In this document: in pieces, positions 1 to 8,575 of the stretch
Layout: every line of letters starts with the position of its first letter
Position numbering within the stretch: position 1 is the first letter of the stretch
NCBI GenBank assembly: GCA_030833725.1
Contig: JAURGP010000017.1
Location: 1 to 41,341 of the forward strand
Reading direction: 5' to 3'
Length of the DNA stretch: 41,341 nt
Origin: Candidatus Kapaibacterium sp.
GTDB lineage: Bacteria; Bacteroidota; Ignavibacteria; Kapaibacteriales; Kapaibacteriaceae
Program-made: the position numbers and the translations under genes
Notes under the pieces: generated by a model
Database searches by the model: none
What the model saw: the letters and a program-made list of their open reading frames with translations, nothing else
What the model was told of the DNA's origin: nothing

Positions 1-329
1 AAATGAATCGCACGGCGGGGGCGGCTACGGATGAGATCACCGTGACATTGGCTGGCACTAGTGCGTCGTACTCTGGTGTTGCAGTTTCATGCGCCAACTG
101 TCCCGCGGGCACAACAGGCGTCCCAACATTTGCCTCTGGGACTAGCTCTGCAACCCCAGCTTTCACAATCGATCCAGCTGGGTCAGGCACACCAGACAAG
201 AACCCCTACGCCTACAGTGTTGAAGGGATTGTGGTGATGAGTTCGTCATCAGGAACCATCACATTGACGATCGACGCTGATTCCGAAATGCTGACAAATA
301 GTTACCTTCTTATTACGGAGATCGACTGA
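1..329 (+). CDS. Secreted CxxCPAGTTGVP-family protein, 3' part (5' end outside window)
   Basis: Function unknown. The visible 108 residues align with the C-terminal halves of the next two genes: a CANC pair followed by PAGTTGVP, an acidic IDPAGSG stretch, a YSVEGIV strand, then a Gly/Ser-rich beta segment ending in TEID. The relatives are about 240 residues with a signal peptide, so this is most likely the end of a longer gene that begins upstream, and the ATG at position 3 is probably internal. The stop overlaps the next start (TGATG, 327-331), which indicates translational coupling. The beta-rich composition suggests a jelly-roll or tail-fibre-like domain, but that is inference. Confidence 0.7.
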   Translation, partial: MNRTAGAATDEITVTLAGTSASYSGVAVSCANCPAGTTGVPTFASGTSSATPAFTIDPAGSGTPDKNPYAYSVEGIVVMSSSSGTITLTIDADSEMLTNSYLLITEID

Positions 330-1069
330 TGAGTACCAGATCGATCATGTGGAGCGTTGTGCTCGTAGGGCTGCTGCTCTGCGTGCCGGCCCTTGCGCCC
401 GCTCAAATCAAGGTTGTTAACAAGTTGCGCATTGTCAATAACTCGACGAACGCGGTGGTCACTCTTGAAGCACCCTCAGCGTTGAGCGAAAACCAGACCT
501 TTACATTCCCCGTTGCGGCCGGTTCGGTAGGGCAAGTCATGACCACTTCGTCCAGTGGTGGTGGTTTGAACCCGATGCAGTGGACTTCAATTGGTTCAAG
601 TGCAACGGCACTGTCCGAGAGAAAAGGGGCGGATGTGGATTATCTGCCGTCGGTCACTGATAGCGCGTTGATTGTTGCCGTAGAATCCAACAAGTCGTAT
701 CGTGTAGCGGGCTTGTTGCATCTTGGCCGTCTTAACGACAATACGCCGTCCGATAACTTCCAAGTCAAGGTCACAGCACCTACGGGTTCAACACGCTTGC
801 TGTATGGACTGCGCTGCTTTGACTGTCCGGCGGGTACCACAGGCGTACCGTCAGTTTCGTCGGGTACAACCATTGTTACTTCGGGGACAATTGACCCTGC
901 AGGTAGCAGCAACGATGATTACACCACGAGGGTGTATTCCATCGAAGGAATCTTAGACACTGGGTCGACAGATGGATTTGTCACCCTCTCAATCATAGAA
1001 CCGGCCAGTGCAACGAATACTCTCCGTATCGGTGTTCAGAGCGCTCTTGTGTTGACGGAGGTAGATTAA
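329..1069 (+). CDS. Secreted CxxCPAGTTGVP-family protein (second tandem copy)
   Basis: Function unknown; 246 residues. A Sec signal peptide occupies about residues 1-26 and ends APAQ. Residues about 30-95 resemble the N-terminal module of tail-fibre-like proteins of this phylum (strands with TFTFPVAAGSVGQVM, then a Gly/Ser linker and QWTS). Residues about 100-246 form a predicted beta domain with the CFDCPAGTTGVP motif, IDPAGS, VYSIEGIL and a terminal LTEVD. The two Cys of CFDC could form a disulphide outside the cytoplasm. The gene overlaps its upstream neighbour by one base and lies 2 bases before the next, so the three are probably cotranscribed. A surface adhesin or receptor-binding role is possible but unproven. 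Confidence 0.75.
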   Translation: MSTRSIMWSVVLVGLLLCVPALAPAQIKVVNKLRIVNNSTNAVVTLEAPSALSENQTFTFPVAAGSVGQVMTTSSSGGGLNPMQWTSIGSSATALSERKGADVDYLPSVTDSALIVAVESNKSYRVAGLLHLGRLNDNTPSDNFQVKVTAPTGSTRLLYGLRCFDCPAGTTGVPSVSSGTTIVTSGTIDPAGSSNDDYTTRVYSIEGILDTGSTDGFVTLSIIEPASATNTLRIGVQSALVLTEVD

Positions 1070-1071
1070 CG

Positions 1072-1797
1072 ATGAGAACATTAACGATTTTTGCAGCTCT
1101 GTTGATACTCACAGGTTCCACACGTGCTCAGGAAGCCGCCCTGAAGGGTGTGCAGATGGTGCGCACCAGTAACGGTTCAAAGCAAACGCTCTCAAGTGCG
1201 ACGGCATCGAATCAAACCATTGTGCTTCCTACGGCAGCAGCAACAGGCACTGGGCAAGGCCTCAAGGTGTCGGCTGTGAGTGGTAGTACCATGTCGCTTG
1301 CATGGGACACTCCAGCATCAGGGTTGGCGAACACATCGTCCCAGTTAACAGCCGATGCAGAGGACGCAACGGCATGGAGTACTGGACCTCTCATTTCTGT
1401 TACGTCAGGAAAGAAATACCGAATCATAGGGTTGTTCCAAATGAAGCGCGGAACGACTACCGGGTCCACGAACGATCTGGTACAAATTCGACTGAACACA
1501 CCTGACTTAACTTACGCTCAGTTCTCCATTTCCTGTTTCGACTGTCCTGCCGGAACGACCGGAGTCCCATCGTTTGACGAAGGTCCCTCGAGTAGTGGGG
1601 CGAACCCATCTATTGATGGTCCAGTGATTGATCCAAACGGTAGTCAATCTGGGGTGGTCTACACGTATCGTATTGAAGGTTTGATCCTACCCGGTGCGAC
1701 TGGATCCACGCGACTGACGTTCAATAAATCTGGTGGCGGCGGGGAAAATGCCGTCATGCTTGCCGGCTCCTACTGGGCACTTCAAGAGATTGAATAA
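1072..1797 (+). CDS. Secreted CxxCPAGTTGVP-family protein (third tandem copy)
   Basis: Function unknown; 241 residues. The signal peptide covers about residues 1-20 and ends TRAQ. The architecture is that of the preceding gene: an N-terminal beta segment (QTIVLPTAAATGTGQGLKVS), a linker, then a beta domain with YRIIGLF, CFDCPAGTTGVPSF, VIDPNGS, YRIEGLI and the terminal LQEIE. Outside these blocks the paralogues differ strongly, which suggests old duplication followed by diversification. Directly after the stop lies a short reading-frame remnant that encodes a coiled coil, so the 3' boundary looks like a recombination junction. Confidence 0.75.
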   Translation: MRTLTIFAALLILTGSTRAQEAALKGVQMVRTSNGSKQTLSSATASNQTIVLPTAAATGTGQGLKVSAVSGSTMSLAWDTPASGLANTSSQLTADAEDATAWSTGPLISVTSGKKYRIIGLFQMKRGTTTGSTNDLVQIRLNTPDLTYAQFSISCFDCPAGTTGVPSFDEGPSSSGANPSIDGPVIDPNGSQSGVVYTYRIEGLILPGATGSTRLTFNKSGGGGENAVMLAGSYWALQEIE

Positions 1798-1901
1798 CGC
1801 AGCAGGCCGTGATTGAGCAGCAGCAGCAAACGATCAACGACCTGAAAAGCCGGATAGAGCGCTTGGAGCGCACCGTGCAGGCATTACAGGAACAGAAGTA
1901 A
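1794..1901 (+). pseudogene. Coiled-coil C-terminal remnant of a tail-fibre-like gene
   Basis: The frame opened just upstream of the preceding stop (shifted relative to that gene) reads about 34 codons to a TAA at 1899-1901. It has no start codon or other evidence of independent translation. The product is strongly heptad-like: QQAVIEQQQQTINDLKSRIE, then RLERTVQALQEQK. Such Gln/Glu-rich coils commonly end tail-fibre or chaperone-type trimeric surface proteins. It is most simply the left-over 3' end of an ancestral gene whose body was replaced or deleted. A programmed frameshift extending the upstream protein is an alternative. Confidence 0.45.
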
Positions 1902-2058: not shown

Positions 2059-2661
2059 ATGAAGTACAATGGCCCCAAGGTAAAACTCAGCCGCAAGGTT
2101 GGTTTTGCTATTACGCCGAAGGCACGCAAAGTGCTGGATCGGAAGCCGGGAACACCCGGACAACACGGTAATTCACGCCGCCGTCCGAAGCAGTCGGACT
2201 ACTCCAAGCAGTTGCTGGAAAAACAGCGTTTGCGTCTCCAGTACAACATCCACGAGCGCCAGATGACCAACACCATGGCTAAGGCATCGCGGTTGAAGGG
2301 CAACAAGGTAGACGTACTCGTGCAATTGCTCGAGTCGCGCTTGGACGCCCTGGTGCTGCGCGCTGGCTTTGCTCGCTCGATCTATGCAGCACGTCAGTAT
2401 GTGCGCCACGGCCACATCCTTGTGAACGGCAAGAAAGTGGACATGCCCGCCTACGCTGTACAGGCCAACGACGTCATCACGGTAAAAGAAGCCAGCCGCA
2501 AGCTGGAAGGCTTCCAGGAAGCGATCCGTTCGTCGGCTCCGCCACCCTACCTGGACGTAAGCAAGGCCGACTTCACGGCCAAGTACCTGTACCTGCCTCC
2601 ACGTGAGGAAGTACCGGTGGTCTGTGAAGTACCGCTGGTGATCGAGTACTACTCGCGGTAA
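2059..2661 (+). CDS. rpsD: Ribosomal protein S4 (uS4), stand-alone gene
   Basis: Small-subunit protein that binds 16S rRNA early in assembly. The 200 residues show the S4 hallmarks: N-terminal GPKVKLSRK, PGQHG near residue 35, SDYSKQLLEKQRLRLQYNI, and the S4 RNA-binding domain around residues 90-155 (ESRLDALVLRAGFARSIYAA, then GHILVNGKKVD). The N-terminal zinc-binding Cys set of some S4 proteins is absent. In many bacteria rpsD lies between rpsK and rpoA; here it is alone, with its own promoter and terminator. It could be the only S4 gene, relocated, or a second divergent paralogue. GGAGC at 2041-2045 is a weak ribosome-binding candidate. Confidence 0.95.
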   Translation: MKYNGPKVKLSRKVGFAITPKARKVLDRKPGTPGQHGNSRRRPKQSDYSKQLLEKQRLRLQYNIHERQMTNTMAKASRLKGNKVDVLVQLLESRLDALVLRAGFARSIYAARQYVRHGHILVNGKKVDMPAYAVQANDVITVKEASRKLEGFQEAIRSSAPPPYLDVSKADFTAKYLYLPPREEVPVVCEVPLVIEYYSR

Positions 2662-2831: not shown

Positions 2832-4079
2832 ATGCAACGTTCGTCGGGGCCGTTTGCAGCGATGGGAATGTTGTTCTTCATGATCGGGTTCATTACCTGT
2901 CTGAACGACATTCTCGTACCACACATGAAGAGCTTGTTCGACCTGAACTACTTGCAGGCAGCGCTCATTCAGTTTAGTTTTTTCACCGCCTACTTTGTGA
3001 TCGCCTTCCCATCGTCGTGGCTGATTTCACGCCTCGGCTATCAGCGATCCATCGTTGTGGGGTTGTCGGTCTCGGCTCTGGGCGCGGCCTTGTTTTACCC
3101 AGCGTCGATCGCGCAGTCATATCCTCTCTTCCTCGTGGGGCTGTTCACGCTGGCCGCGGGGTTCGCGTTGTTACAAACGGCCATGAATCCATACGTAGCT
3201 GTGCTGGGTCCTCCAGAGAGTTCATCAGCACGGTTGGTGTTGTCGCAGGCGTTTAACTCGGTGGGGACAACCATTGCACCATTGATGGGTGGCCTTTTCA
3301 TCCTGGGTACGATTCTATCAGCAGATGACATGGCCATGCTATCACCTAGCGAGGTAACAGACTACAAGGCCACACAATCAGCAGCTGTCCAGGTGCCATA
3401 TCTCGTGTTGATGGGACTGCTCATCCTCCTTGCTGTGATCATGTGGAGACTGCACCTGCCTACGATTGCAGATGTTGAGGGGGAGGACGAGCGATCGGTA
3501 TCGTTTTGGGCACCTCTCAGGGTCCCACACACACTCAAGGGTGTGTTCGGGATCTTTGCCTACGTGGGTGCTGAAGTGGCCATCGGATCGTTTATGGTGA
3601 ACTACTTCCAAGAACAAGTTGGAATTGGCGAGCAGGATGCTTCTCAGTACGTGGCGTATTACTGGGGAGGAGCCATGGTTGGGCGATTCATCGGATCGTG
3701 GCTGCTGACGCACCTGCGACCCGGTATGCTTCTCGGCGTCATGTCGGTCGCGAATGTGCTATTGGTTAGCGGTGCGATGATGACGAACGGATTCGTCTCT
3801 GCCTCGATGCTCGTACTGTGTGGCTTGTTCAACTCTATCATGTTTGCGACCATCTTCACGCTCGCCATTAAGGATGTTGGCGTGATGACTAACAAAGCGT
3901 CTAGTTGGCTGATTGCCGCCATTCTTGGAGGTGCCATTATCCCGGCCATTCAAGGTGCAATCGCCGATTCAACGGGTACGCTTGTGCCATCATACGTGGT
4001 TCCGGCTATCTGCTACGTCTACATCGCTTACTACGGATTCCTCGGTTCTCGTCACACTACACAAGGGCGCGCCGTATGA
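2832..4079 (+). CDS. MFS sugar permease (FucP/glucose-galactose porter type)
   Basis: Inner-membrane sugar/proton symporter of the FHS group of the major facilitator superfamily. About 415 residues with some 12 hydrophobic segments. Diagnostic stretches are GFITCLNDILVPHMK near the N-terminus, AFPSSWLISRLGYQRSIVVGL in the loop 2-3 region, and LQTAMNPYVAVLGP. The start at 2832 is chosen because it places the first membrane segment about ten residues in, as in relatives; an in-frame start at 2757 would add 25 untypical residues. The gene overlaps the susC start by 4 bases (ATGA), so it is probably the first gene of the starch locus. It probably imports glucose or maltose released in the periplasm; the exact sugar is not shown by the sequence. 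Confidence 0.85.
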   Translation: MQRSSGPFAAMGMLFFMIGFITCLNDILVPHMKSLFDLNYLQAALIQFSFFTAYFVIAFPSSWLISRLGYQRSIVVGLSVSALGAALFYPASIAQSYPLFLVGLFTLAAGFALLQTAMNPYVAVLGPPESSSARLVLSQAFNSVGTTIAPLMGGLFILGTILSADDMAMLSPSEVTDYKATQSAAVQVPYLVLMGLLILLAVIMWRLHLPTIADVEGEDERSVSFWAPLRVPHTLKGVFGIFAYVGAEVAIGSFMVNYFQEQVGIGEQDASQYVAYYWGGAMVGRFIGSWLLTHLRPGMLLGVMSVANVLLVSGAMMTNGFVSASMLVLCGLFNSIMFATIFTLAIKDVGVMTNKASSWLIAAILGGAIIPAIQGAIADSTGTLVPSYVVPAICYVYIAYYGFLGSRHTTQGRAV

Positions 4080-7000
4080 TACGTTGGTTCGTCTTCGTTC
4101 TTTGTACGCTACTTTTTCTGCCCGCAGTTGGGCACGCTGCCGACGCATCGATCTCCGGCACGGTACGCTCAAAGGATGGTAAGGGGCTCGAGGGAGCTAC
4201 CATCCGCGTTGTTGGAACCGCACTTGGAGCCATTTCCAAGAAGAATGGATCATTTGTGATTCCGCTGGCCAAGGCTCAGGATGTTACGTTGAACGTGACG
4301 ATGATCGGCTTTGTGCAGCAGACCGTGACGGTGAAGGCCGGAGCACTCGATCAGCCCCTTACCATTAGTCTAGAACAGGACATGCTGAAACTTCAGGAGG
4401 CCGTGGTTGTAGGGTACGGAACCAAACAACGTCAGGACCTGACTGGTAGTATTGCCCGTGTAGACGCTCAAGAGATCGCCCAGAACACCTACGGCAACTT
4501 CGAGAATGCCATTGTTGGCAGAGCTCCGGGCGTGCAGGTGATCAGCTCCAATGGCATGGCCGGCAGCTCCATGACGATTCGCGTGCGGGGTGTGGGCTCG
4601 TTGACAGCTTCGGGTGAGCCTTTGTACGTGATTGACGGCGTGCCGGTAACCCAAGGCGACTTTGGTGGCACGAACCGCTTGGCGACACAGACGAATGCGC
4701 TGGCATCGATCAATCCGAACGACATTGAGTCAATCGATATTCTCAAGGATGCCGATGCCGCTGCGATCTATGGATCTCGTGGTTCGAATGGTGTCGTGCT
4801 GATTACCACGAAGCGAGGACGGACCGGTTCGACGAAGTTCAACGTGAGCTTGTTTGGTGGTAGCGCGCGCGAAACGCATCGACCTACCTACCTTTCAGGC
4901 GACGAGTTCCGTGAGCTCTGGGCTGAGGCCAACCGCAATGACTCCATTGCACTCTCGATCCTGCGGCCAGCATCCCGATTCACAGCAAAACCCCTGCCGG
5001 GTGCGATGGATCCTGCGCTCTATACCAACACAAACTGGTTGGATCAGACGATGCAGGTCGGTCGGATTCTTGATGCGAACATCTCAGCTTCTGGTGGATC
5101 CGAGTTCGCGAGCTTTTTCTCAAGCCTAGGCTACCGCAAGGAGTCGTCGTACGCCGTGGCCAATGAGTTCGAGCGCATGACGGCACGCACGAACGTAGAG
5201 GTCAACGCCTCCGACAAGGTCAAGATTGGACTCAATGCCAACCTGAATTACGCCGTGAATGACCGCGTACCCGTGGCGTGGGCCGGTGGTATCGGAGCGG
5301 CCCAGAGCAGTGCACTTCCGTATTTCCCGATCTTCAATCCCGATGGAACGTACTTCGAGCCGCAGCGGCCGTGGTATGCCATGTACAACCCAGTGGCGCA
5401 ACTCAACGAGAACACGTTTACGAACTCGGAACAGCGCGTGCTGGCGAACCTCTATACATCGATTCAGCTCCCGGCGAATTTCTCTGTTCGAGTTCAAGGA
5501 GGTGTGGACCTCTTCAACTTTACTGACCGACGATACACGTCGCTGGTGGTGCAATCGGAGGCCGAAGCCGAAGTTCGGAAGGTGGGGGTTGCCAACTGGG
5601 TGGTGAACGGATCGCTCAACTACTCCAATAACGAGTTGACACCAGACTTGAAGCTGTCGGCTCTGGCGGCCATCGAGGCACAGCGGTCTGATCAACTGGT
5701 CACAGGGCTGGTTGGTCGCAACTTTCCAAACCCTGCCTTTGAGAACCCCACGTCGGCTGTCGTGCGCGAGGGATACTCATTTGAAACAGGATTTTCCTTC
5801 CTCTCCTTTATCTCCCGGTGGAATTTCACCTACCGCGACCGTTATCTGCTGAGCATCTCAGGAAGAACAGATGGATCGTCACGGTTTGGAAGTGATAATC
5901 GCTTCGGCTTCTTCCCTTCTGTTGGTGCGGCTTGGATCTTGAGCAATGAGGATTTTCTCAAGGGCAACGATGCCATTTCGCTGTTGAAGCTACGAGCGAG
6001 CTATGGTTTGACTGGTAATGCCGATGGTATTGGCGATTACCAGTGGCAGGGCACATACCGGGCAGGCGCCGACTATGCCGGCACACCCGGTTTGCGCCCC
6101 GATCGTCTTGCCAACCCCTTACTCGGCTGGGAGCAGACGGCACAGTTAGACATAACCGGTGAGGCAGCATTCTGGGATGGACGCCTGCAGGCAACGGTTT
6201 CATACTATTCCAAAGTGACGTCAAACGTCTTACTCAATGTGTCGGTGCCGGCGTCTACCGGCTTTTCGTCGATTCTGAAGAACGTTGGATCGTTTGAGAA
6301 TCGTGGTGTGGAAGTTGTGCTGTCGGGATATCCGGTGAGCAATGAAACCTTGACATGGCGGGCAGATCTGTCGATTGCGCACAACGTCAACGAAGTGCTT
6401 GATAACGCGGGCCTACCACCAGATGCAATTGGCGGTCCAGGGGAGACCCGGATTCTGGTGGGATACCCGGTAGGTACGTTTTTCATCAACCGTTCTGCAG
6501 GTGTGCAGAGCCGCACCGATACCGTTACGGTGCAGCGCCGACGCTCCGGGAACAACGTGTCATTCGGTACCGATCCCGATGATACTAGATGGGCGCAATT
6601 CTACGACACCACGGTGGTGATCCTAGGGGGCAGTCAGTTGTTCTACAACATTAATGGTCGAGTGACAGATCTCTACGATTTGAGCGATCGTGTGCCGCTG
6701 GGGAATCCGTACCCGACGTTCTTCGGTTCGTTGACGAACACGATCACAATCGGTGGATTTGATATCACTGCCATGGTGTACTTCCAGTTTGGCAACCAGA
6801 TCTACGATGATGCTGCCAAGCGTCAGGTGGGTAATCTGGCATCGAACTTCAATCAAGATCGCGATCAAACCCTACCTCGATGGCAGCAGGATGGAGATGT
6901 TACGGACGTACCACGACTGTCATTGACGGAGAACTACGACATCAACACAGACCGATTTATCTATGACGGATCATTCGTGCGATTGCGCCAGCTGACGGTT

Positions 7001-7225
7001 GGCTATACGCTTCCAGCGGACGTTGCAAGTGGTATGGGGCTTTCCACGATGCGTGTGTACGTTACTGGACAGAACCTCCTCACCTGGACGAACTATCCAG
7101 GTTGGGATCCAGAGATCATGCGCGATCAAGATGGAGCGCAAGGAAGAAACCTAGGGGCTGGAGTCACGTACCTGACTCCGCCTCAGGCACAGCAGTTGGT
7201 TTTTGGCATTAACGTGGGATTCTAA
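4076..7225 (+). CDS. SusC/RagA-type TonB-linked outer-membrane transporter
   Basis: Outer-membrane barrel that imports oligosaccharides with a SusD lid, powered by TonB. 1049 residues. Signal peptide about 1-21 (ends VGHA). A carboxypeptidase-regulatory-like domain spans about 24-105 (SISGTVRSKDGKGLEGATIR). The SusC-type plug starts VVVGYGTKQRQDLTGSI and includes YVIDGVPV and SIDILKDADAAAIYGSRGSN. The rest is barrel, ending in aromatic GINVGF. The start at 4076 overlaps the permease stop; an upstream in-frame extension to 3905 lies inside the permease gene and is rejected. susD follows after 3 bases. The neighbouring amylase and glucosidase point to starch or maltodextrin as substrate (inference). 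Confidence 0.95.
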   Translation: MIRWFVFVLCTLLFLPAVGHAADASISGTVRSKDGKGLEGATIRVVGTALGAISKKNGSFVIPLAKAQDVTLNVTMIGFVQQTVTVKAGALDQPLTISLEQDMLKLQEAVVVGYGTKQRQDLTGSIARVDAQEIAQNTYGNFENAIVGRAPGVQVISSNGMAGSSMTIRVRGVGSLTASGEPLYVIDGVPVTQGDFGGTNRLATQTNALASINPNDIESIDILKDADAAAIYGSRGSNGVVLITTKRGRTGSTKFNVSLFGGSARETHRPTYLSGDEFRELWAEANRNDSIALSILRPASRFTAKPLPGAMDPALYTNTNWLDQTMQVGRILDANISASGGSEFASFFSSLGYRKESSYAVANEFERMTARTNVEVNASDKVKIGLNANLNYAVNDRVPVAWAGGIGAAQSSALPYFPIFNPDGTYFEPQRPWYAMYNPVAQLNENTFTNSEQRVLANLYTSIQLPANFSVRVQGGVDLFNFTDRRYTSLVVQSEAEAEVRKVGVANWVVNGSLNYSNNELTPDLKLSALAAIEAQRSDQLVTGLVGRNFPNPAFENPTSAVVREGYSFETGFSFLSFISRWNFTYRDRYLLSISGRTDGSSRFGSDNRFGFFPSVGAAWILSNEDFLKGNDAISLLKLRASYGLTGNADGIGDYQWQGTYRAGADYAGTPGLRPDRLANPLLGWEQTAQLDITGEAAFWDGRLQATVSYYSKVTSNVLLNVSVPASTGFSSILKNVGSFENRGVEVVLSGYPVSNETLTWRADLSIAHNVNEVLDNAGLPPDAIGGPGETRILVGYPVGTFFINRSAGVQSRTDTVTVQRRRSGNNVSFGTDPDDTRWAQFYDTTVVILGGSQLFYNINGRVTDLYDLSDRVPLGNPYPTFFGSLTNTITIGGFDITAMVYFQFGNQIYDDAAKRQVGNLASNFNQDRDQTLPRWQQDGDVTDVPRLSLTENYDINTDRFIYDGSFVRLRQLTVGYTLPADVASGMGLSTMRVYVTGQNLLTWTNYPGWDPEIMRDQDGAQGRNLGAGVTYLTPPQAQQLVFGINVGF

Positions 7226-7228
7226 GTC

Positions 7229-8575
7229 ATGCGTACACGTTTTCCTGCGATAGCTGTCACGGCACTTCTCAGCCTAACGGTAGTGTCATGCGATAGCTTT
7301 CTCCAGACAGAGCCACCACTGGACATCTCCAATGATGTGGCCCTTTCAACTCCAGCTGGGATCGAGGCGGTAATGGTTGGAGCGGCAGATGCCATGCAGT
7401 CGGGCGCCCTCTTTGGCGGTAATGTCATGTCGATGGGGGAGCTGTGGTCCGACAACGTGGAGTCGAACGTAGGAGCAGACTTCGGGCGATTGCAGATTCT
7501 CACCTACAACCTGAACATCTTCAACCCTGAGGGACGGAGCATGTGGGGTGATGGCTATGGTGTGATCAATCGTGTAAACAACGTCCTCGCGGCGCTAGAC
7601 AACGTCCCGTTCGACAATCCTGCACGGGCGCAACAGTTGAGGGGCAGAGCATTGGCCATGCGAGCGCTTACGATGTGGTCGCTGTGTATGTACTTCGCCC
7701 AACCATGGGGCTTTACAGAGGACAACAGTCATCCAGGAATCATCATTCGCACGGAACCGACGCTGGGAGATGTTGGTACGCAGAAAGCTCGTGCCACGCT
7801 GGCAGCGTGCTACCAGCAGATCATCGCAGACTTTCAGGCAGCACGTACGCTGTTGCCCCCTACCGATGCCCCATACATGGGGAGTTTGGCAGTGACCGGC
7901 TTGCTAGCGCGCGTGTACTTCCACATGGGTGATTGGGCAACAGCCGAGGCACTGGCAACGGAAGTCATCGAAAGCGGTGTGTATCGCCTCAACCCAGATG
8001 TGACGTCGGTGGTGACTACCAACAGCACACCCGAGGTGATGTACGAGATTGTTAACCTGGCGAACGACAATGCATCGTCGATCGTGTTTGATTTCCGGCA
8101 GGCTGATAACGCCTCGCCACGGTACTGGGCAGGGACACCCTTTGTCAACACGATCTATCGAAATGCTACAGATGGTCGGTTGGCACTGTACGTGTATCGG
8201 AACAATCGCCTGTACGTTGCAAAATGGGATCGGATTGTGATGAACATCCCGATCCTACGCTATGCAGAAATGTACCTCACGCGTTCAGAGTGCCGATTCC
8301 AACAGGGGAATACTGTTGGTGCAGTCGAGGACGTGAACGTGATCCGTGAGCGGGCGGGTCTTGAGCCCCTTCCTACCAGCCAGGCAGGGAACACCCTGCT
8401 CAATAACATCCGGCGTGAACGTAACGTGGAGCTGGCATTTGAAGGAGACATCTTCTTGGAGCGCAAACGTCAACGCCGAGATCTTAAGGACAAACCCTGG
8501 AACGATGCTGCCCTGATCTTCAAGATTCCCGATATCGAAATGAACGCCAATACGTTGTGCGCTCAGAATCCATAG
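7229..8575 (+). CDS. SusD/RagB-type glycan-binding lipoprotein
   Basis: Surface lipoprotein lid of the SusC transporter, 448 residues. The lipobox VVSC places the lipidated cysteine at residue 21. N-terminal SFLQTEPPLDISNDVALSTP is typical of the family. The TPR-like helices and C-terminal signatures are visible: PILRYAEMYLTRSECRF, VNVIRERAGL and NIRRERNVELAFEGDIFLER. It is directly downstream of susC and the pair is presumably stoichiometric. Sugar-contact residues cannot be identified from sequence alone. Confidence 0.93.
   Translation: MRTRFPAIAVTALLSLTVVSCDSFLQTEPPLDISNDVALSTPAGIEAVMVGAADAMQSGALFGGNVMSMGELWSDNVESNVGADFGRLQILTYNLNIFNPEGRSMWGDGYGVINRVNNVLAALDNVPFDNPARAQQLRGRALAMRALTMWSLCMYFAQPWGFTEDNSHPGIIIRTEPTLGDVGTQKARATLAACYQQIIADFQAARTLLPPTDAPYMGSLAVTGLLARVYFHMGDWATAEALATEVIESGVYRLNPDVTSVVTTNSTPEVMYEIVNLANDNASSIVFDFRQADNASPRYWAGTPFVNTIYRNATDGRLALYVYRNNRLYVAKWDRIVMNIPILRYAEMYLTRSECRFQQGNTVGAVEDVNVIRERAGLEPLPTSQAGNTLLNNIRRERNVELAFEGDIFLERKRQRRDLKDKPWNDAALIFKIPDIEMNANTLCAQNP
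7855..7863 (-). repeat. GTAGGGGGC motif copy in susD
   Basis: Nine-base core of the repeated motif on the minus strand (tenth base A). In the susD frame it is read as Pro-Pro-Thr codons. Confidence 0.5.

Follow-up and report, generated by a model that had tools for sequence, protein, structure and literature searches.

The first 1,797 nucleotides of the window, by which the whole analysed stretch of 41,341 nucleotides is meant, carry three adjacent and closely coupled genes. Their products are probably short secreted fibre-tip adhesins, which would place them, as a variant, among the systems of fibres with TNF-like tips, to which the MAT fibres of Bdellovibrio belong; among the roles weighed here, that of short adhesin tips is the most likely one for these proteins. 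The tandem family is real. Its fold and its probable function are ordinary, while the minimal architecture, the coupled triplets and a private CxxC loop are unusual.

Three closely coupled genes with a common C-terminal block

The array consists of the following genes:

3..329, forward strand: gene 1, with the 5' end cut by the contig start; it contains most of the TNF-like C-terminal tip domain (profile match 6-326)
329..1069, forward strand: gene 2, 246 amino acids; signal-peptide-like N-terminus, short fibre-like module and TNF-like tip domain
1072..1797, forward strand: gene 3, 241 amino acids; same architecture as gene 2

Genes 1 and 2 meet in the sequence TGATG, in which the stop and the start codon share one base, and genes 2 and 3 are separated by a gap of two bases (TAA-cg-ATG). 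The first base of the window is also the first base of contig C8 of the genome, and as gene 1 is cut, further members beyond these three may exist. When the window's own genome was searched with gene 2, gene 3 (E 5.8e-19) and gene 1 (E 3.1e-13) were recovered, showing that the common block is not a chance similarity. No further match to gene 2 was found in this genome at E values up to 1, and a profile of the tip domain (A2), run over the same assembly, yielded these three genes as the sole copies. The open reading frames, the junctions and the E values of the own-genome search were thus in agreement with the original prediction, which had proposed three adjacent coupled genes with a common CxxCPAGTTGVP block. 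The strong divergence of the flanks, also proposed there, was evident from the numbers of identical C-terminal residues in the gene pairs (42 of 106, 40 of 105 and 47 of 146). A scan for promoters and terminators gave counts at the level of shuffled sequences.

The three copies were compared at the codon level. Eight of the nine positions of CPAGTTGVP use two or three different codons across the three genes, and degenerate codons of identical residues differed in 28 of 42, 23 of 39 and 32 of 47 cases between the gene pairs. These raw counts suggest that synonymous sites are near saturation. The motif looks as if it were held by selection on the protein, and the copies look old. Direct repeats of at least 15 bases were absent from positions 1-2100, and in view of this and of the heavy synonymous divergence there is no sign of a recent duplication or gene conversion. 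The same two observations argue against a currently diversifying surface array with phase or antigen variation, as does the fact that just three copies were found in the assembly. Such an array would fit the tandem paralogues and the interval between queC and rpsD, which varies between relatives (see below), and it was nevertheless regarded as highly improbable. The idea of a diversifying array with an antigenic or receptor-binding repertoire has therefore to be divided: a receptor-binding tip is plausible in the light of the predicted TNF-like fold, whereas an antigenic or currently diversifying array is not supported, as the copies look old and are devoid of repeats of this length.

The N-terminal module and apparent export

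Between the N-terminus and the tip domain, genes 2 and 3 encode a short module with approximate boundaries:

404..604, forward strand: N-terminal module of gene 2 (about residues 26-92)
1129..1335, forward strand: N-terminal module of gene 3 (about residues 20-88)

A profile built from 13 other proteins matched the modules of gene 2 (E 3.5e-13) and gene 3 (E 2.1e-7), while the best decoy had an E value of 0.13. The proposal of a tail-fibre-like N-terminal module was thereby supported, and the order has further fibre-like, secreted proteins with this module. Both genes begin with a signal-peptide-like stretch that ends in AQ, as judged by eye, and their products are therefore apparently secreted. 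The 'ISYQGLL' domain, which is carried by long fibres of the order, was not found in genes 2 and 3. A long tail-fibre-like gene that starts with such a domain, as ISFQGLL, is present elsewhere in the own genome G000 (locus L102, 1471-2775; contig C41, 11771-13075); it runs off the contig end, so that its C-terminal end lies outside the assembly contig.

The tip domain belongs to an order-wide family

The C-terminal domains of the two complete genes were delimited as follows:

605..1066, forward strand: TNF/C1q-like tip domain of gene 2 (profile coordinates, predicted model and fold match)
1327..1794, forward strand: TNF/C1q-like tip domain of gene 3 (profile coordinates; by homology to gene 2)

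Searches of the three window proteins against Pfam and NCBIfam yielded no family at its cut-off, including no C1q match, and a search against PHROGs gave no E value below 0.048. The names that did appear were weak and unrelated (Ephrin_rec_like, 0.08; Defensin_propep, 0.13; phrog_26259, 0.048), and a match to FimG (E 0.0039) was rejected, as its 16.9 bits compare with a cut-off of 220. Relatives were found in the genomes of related organisms. A search of 60 genomes, including the own genome, with gene 2 gave matches in 26 at E values up to 0.1; many of these were to the N-terminal module, and the C-terminal domains of several such relatives could be aligned with those of the window. With profile A2, which includes rows from the window, the domain was found in 27 of 123 genomes of the order (own included), representing 15 of 51 genera, at E values up to 0.01. 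It was also found in 15 of 395 genomes sampled from the phylum (own included) at E values up to 1e-5, with fewer candidates scored per genome than in the order survey, and all 15 belong to the same class. Many of the domain-bearing open frames exceed 500 amino acids, and several that were read are tail-fibre-like.

To reduce circularity, an independent profile was built from 20 rows of the family alignment A3, without the window rows and without the syntenic gene of genome G019. It matched the three window genes with E values of 4.7e-11, 1.8e-6 and 2.7e-6, and the best other match among 309 window segments and 309 reversed segments had an E value of 0.23; a mild circularity persists in these values, as the 20 rows had been picked using profiles that held window sequences. 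A profile-profile comparison of the window domain with the 20 relatives resulted in a probability of 97.4% and an E value of 1.1e-11. By these profile comparisons, the window genes are members of an order-wide family of fibre-tip domains. The C-terminal domain had been described as unfamiliar; this view was given up in favour of membership in a widespread family, on the basis of the 20-relative profile and of the fold matches described below. Searches of PDB sequences were not convincing (best E 0.058 with profile A2 and 0.5 with profile A4). The bacterial lectins BC2L-C and PLTL, which are introduced below, were absent from these matches (A2 at E up to 10, A4 at E up to 1), and divergence may hide a kinship. 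An unannotated family of an obscure bacterial order is hereby linked both to phage fibre tips and to a fold of which some members are known to bind glycans.

A jelly roll of the TNF/C1q type is predicted

Structures were predicted as single chains for gene 2 and for one relative from G033, a genome of another family of the order, and the fold of gene 3 follows by homology. In the gene 2 model, the ten-residue means of pLDDT were 72-95 from residue 91 onwards, and the N-terminus was poor. Its top structural matches were PLTL (9ib6 and 9ib7, Z 11.1) and BC2L-C (2wq4, Z 11.0), with an rmsd of 2.5 over 121-122 aligned residues, followed by birnavirus capsids (Z 10.0), Pgp3 (9.7), and then spore proteins and C1q/TNF domains. 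Foldseek alone ranked Pgp3 first (E 1.0e-4) and 4-1BBL thereafter (2.8e-4). In a viral structure library, phage collagen-repeat, uncharacterised and tail-fibre proteins were matched with E values from 5.9e-11, among them a tail fibre of Streptomyces phage Lannister (7.8e-9). The domain of the G033 relative, modelled alone, had a pLDDT of 94; PLTL, chlamydial Pgp3 and BC2L-C all reached Z 11.0, the spike of phage phi812 had 10.1, and Foldseek placed PLTL 9ib6 first (E 1.3e-5). TM-scores were modest, with about 0.3 when normalised by the 246-residue gene 2 model and up to 0.55 for the G033 relative. Matches to IBDV and IPNV capsids and to BcsB were taken to reflect the common jelly-roll arrangement.

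Taken together, the models provide good support for a tip that is a compact all-beta jelly roll of the TNF/C1q type with about 130-150 residues. The lectins are the nearest example of the predicted fold, and the matches fit a jelly roll, not a lectin as such. Because Pgp3 and the phage spike tie with the lectins in the case of the G033 relative, slightly less weight was placed on the adhesin reading and more on a structural or decorative role, in which the jelly roll would cap and trimerise a small extracellular assembly and bind no ligand. The fold is indeed used by structural surface proteins, as ExsFA/BxpB and BclA of Bacillus spores and virus capsids were among the matches. However, three diverged, closely spaced copies and the presence of TNF-like lectins among the best matches fit recognition better, and a pure cap would presumably need no repertoire. 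A purely structural role was thus considered a real but minor possibility.

For short adhesin tips, the proposed course would be as follows. Each product would start with a Sec signal peptide, continue with a tail-fibre-type module some 70 residues long and end in a TNF/C1q-like jelly roll with homology to the tips of phage fibres, and it would be secreted and displayed on the surface. Most likely, three jelly rolls assemble around a threefold axis, and the trimer would bind a glycan or another surface ligand, perhaps in pockets between the protomers. Three coupled paralogues with diverged surfaces could then provide either several binding specificities or one mixed trimer.

A lineage-specific loop within the predicted jelly roll

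The conserved block was located in all three genes:

90..125, forward strand: CxxCPAGTTGVP loop of gene 1 (from the alignment)
815..850, forward strand: CxxCPAGTTGVP loop of gene 2 (residues 163-174, after model strand 156-163)
1534..1569, forward strand: CxxCPAGTTGVP loop of gene 3 (residues 155-166)

In the alignment of the three genes, C30 and C33 to P41 (i.e., the two cysteines and PAGTTGVP), IDPxGS and YxxEG were invariant. Of the motif as first described, CxxC, PAGTTGVP and IDPxGS held, whereas 'YxIEGI' had to be corrected to Y-[SR]-[IV]-E-G-[IL]. According to the gene 2 model the block forms a loop within the predicted jelly roll, directly after strand 156-163, and a disulfide would probably close it. 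CxxCPAGTTGVP was absent from every domain of a relative that was read, while several domain matches lay outside this set; the syntenic gene of G019 has a CxxC, but at a different place. An exact codon search of the collections genome_contigs and viral_contigs, with a strict pattern that would miss divergent versions, retrieved no credible protein. One stretch from Nonomuraea (genome_contigs) was an Arg/Pro-rich frame and was judged spurious, and another from viral_contigs had no open reading frame of at least 60 amino acids in the respective frame. A pattern scan of genome_contigs with gene 3 returned 42 stretches, none of which was a relative. As judged from the sequences read, CxxCPAGTTGVP is a lineage-specific loop.

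A second coupled triplet in G033

The absence of tandem homologues elsewhere would have spoken against the original prediction, and such homologues were found. G033 contains three genes of 353, 354 and 358 amino acids with two-base gaps, each with a signal-peptide-like start, the N-terminal module (E 5.5e-9, 9.9e-10 and 1.3e-7) and the tip domain (E 1.1e-49, 1.5e-51 and 6.2e-46); these values refer to a nominal 5,000 sequences, and the tip profile includes the three rows themselves as well as the window rows. The triplet is preceded by longer domain-bearing frames.

Complement C1q is encoded by three neighbouring genes and forms a mixed trimer. It is tempting to speculate that the triplet of the window likewise forms an obligate mixed trimer, to which each gene contributes one chain and in whose head the CxxC loops lie close together. 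If true, such a bacterial heterotrimer of the C1q kind would account for the G033 triplet as well as for three copies here that are coupled and have diverged to a similar extent. However, two of the G033 tips are far closer to each other (67% identity) than the third is to the modelled one (33%), which homotrimers would explain as well. An obligate mixed trimer was judged unlikely.

The domain in phages

Three of five relatives tested matched phrog_24062 (E 8.9e-8 to 2.3e-4), and so did 12 of the 24 members of A3 (best 3.1e-13), gene 2 not being among them. When 50,697 phage records were searched with tblastn, the G033 domain gave 11 matches, which represent eight phages, three of them recorded twice, and the domain of G009 gave three matches; all were to Streptomyces phages. 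The gene 2 domain had no match in these records at E values up to 0.1. In the four phage proteins that were read, the domain forms the C-terminal end, and all four have collagen-like stretches by eye. In Beuffert and SparkleGoddess the domain gene is the third one downstream of the capsid gene; in Lannister and Nanodon it is the second one downstream of a gene for a minor tail protein. When a profile was made from the domains of these four phages alone, it matched gene 2 (1.3e-4) and gene 1 (0.085), while gene 3 was unmatched up to an E value of 5. The phage link of the window genes thus runs mainly via their bacterial relatives.

Among these relatives, G314 of the same class has a prophage-like block, named mostly by eye, in which the second gene after that for Phage_capsid (1.9e-27) carries the domain. 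Besides the tip domain, this gene (locus L134, 10111-10662) encodes a signal-peptide-like stretch that follows an internal ATG, and it reads as a phage gene with an export-like product. G115 of the same order has two domain genes in a block that reads, mostly by eye, as phage structural genes. Peptidase_S74 was found in none of five genomes of the genus (own included) at E values up to 0.01, while the E. coli control was matched. The occurrence of the domain in phages hints at an exchange between phages and hosts.

A variable interval between queC and rpsD

To the right, the array is followed by a conserved gene:

2059..2661, forward strand: rpsD, the conserved right-hand border of a variable interval

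This gene was found in 18 of 22 relatives, and in five of these 18 (G002, G003, G006, G017 and G019) a domain frame is present upstream of it, after queC or a contig edge; that of G006 has 114 amino acids and is devoid of N-terminal parts. queC was visible upstream of rpsD in eight of the 18, and in the other ten the contig edge came first or queC lay outside the stretch read. The interval is shorter than 300 bases in four genomes (G007, G015, G018 and G010), holds the domain in G003 (10,252 bases) and G006 (1,837 bases), and is occupied by a long fibre without the domain in G013 and by an unrelated opposite-strand frame in G008. In the own genome, queC is located close to the end of contig C55, and after it begins a gene (locus L099, 3-338) that resembles, by eye, the gene after queC in G003 and is likely its counterpart. 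The G003 gene matched FlgD_ig (9.7e-8) and, below the cut-off, Por_Secre_tail (1e-4), and the C55 fragment had no Pfam match; this suggests that the opposite end of the queC-rpsD island encodes a cargo of type IX secretion. The island was probably broken in the assembly, with the array as its right-hand part and the join drawn from synteny. The variable interval is a place to watch tips being gained and lost.

Directly after gene 3, in another frame, positions 1800-1901 (forward strand) contain 33 codons that read as a C-terminal coiled coil (QQQQTINDLKSRIERLERTVQALQEQK). The best match of this peptide in the 22 searched genomes outside the own was the tail of a fibre in G025, which reads by eye as S74 type (48% over 25 amino acids, E 0.095, a weak match). 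The frame is perhaps a remnant of an older fibre gene. Within the own genome, a second, small match to the 1800-1898 peptide was located on C10 (E 0.012); as it overlaps the beginning of a release-factor-2-like gene, it was dismissed as chance.

The neighbours to the right of the array are rpsD and genes that appear ordinary by eye, and no injection-system gene was noticed by eye among them; the left side is missing at the contig edge. Downstream of rpsD and a transporter-like gene, positions 3905-8575 contain genes resembling those for a TonB-dependent receptor and SusD (by eye).

The three genes could alternatively be remnant or domesticated fibre genes of a prophage without a present function for the host. 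The phage-structural-like blocks around relatives in G314 and G115, the Streptomyces phages and the weak resemblance of the out-of-frame piece to an S74-type fibre tail are in line with such an origin. However, the genes on the side that is present, which look ordinary by eye, two intact open reading frames with signal-peptide-like starts, a protein that was kept while synonymous sites drifted, and three closely spaced homologues that are kept in another family (G033) argue against it, and a prophage remnant was considered very unlikely.

Comparison with known systems

A literature search for tandem secreted fibre proteins of Bacteroidetes yielded nothing specific, and the genes were compared with four known systems. 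The N-terminal domain of BC2L-C from Burkholderia cenocepacia and PLTL from Photorhabdus laumondii are bacterial single jelly-roll domains and were the best or tied-best matches of both models, but with just 7-16% sequence identity and no convincing profile match. Both bind fucosylated glycans (PMC12914763, PMC3164656), and PLTL is described to form TNF-like trimers that are paired into disulfide-stabilised hexamers (PMC12914763).

C1q domains have been described on fibres of extracellular contractile injection systems (PMC12923769). They share with the proposed tips a C1q/TNF-type recognition domain on fibre proteins; in contrast, the window genes have signal-peptide-like N-termini and no C1q match in Pfam. 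The phage fibre tips of phrog_24062 (Beuffert gp29 and Lannister gp23) have, by sequence, the same C-terminal domain as relatives of the window genes. Unlike gene 2, which is not matched by this family, the four phage proteins have collagen-like stretches and are encoded in virion gene blocks.

The MAT fibres of Bdellovibrio are chromosomally encoded, exported and tail-fibre-like, and form a family with varied tips, including the TNF-like tips of Bd2439 and Bd2734; the structure of Bd2439 was determined with GlcNAc, and those MAT proteins that were tested in tagged form were detected on the surface (PMC10769870). The Bd2734 tip (8okw) was among the structural matches of the G033 relative (Z 8.1). 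MAT proteins are typically about 1,000 amino acids long, the shortest named having 626, and carry a conserved domain of about 130 amino acids after the signal peptide (PMC10769870). In contrast, genes 2 and 3 encode about 240 amino acids, with about 70 residues between signal peptide and tip, and are part of a closely spaced array. As there is no room for this N-terminal domain, genes 2 and 3 are, by sequence, not MAT proteins in the sense of its defining feature, for which the 'ISYQGLL' domain of the order served as a stand-in. The array suggests that bacteria beyond Bdellovibrio also keep sets of exported fibre tips, here in a minimal form and without a long shaft.
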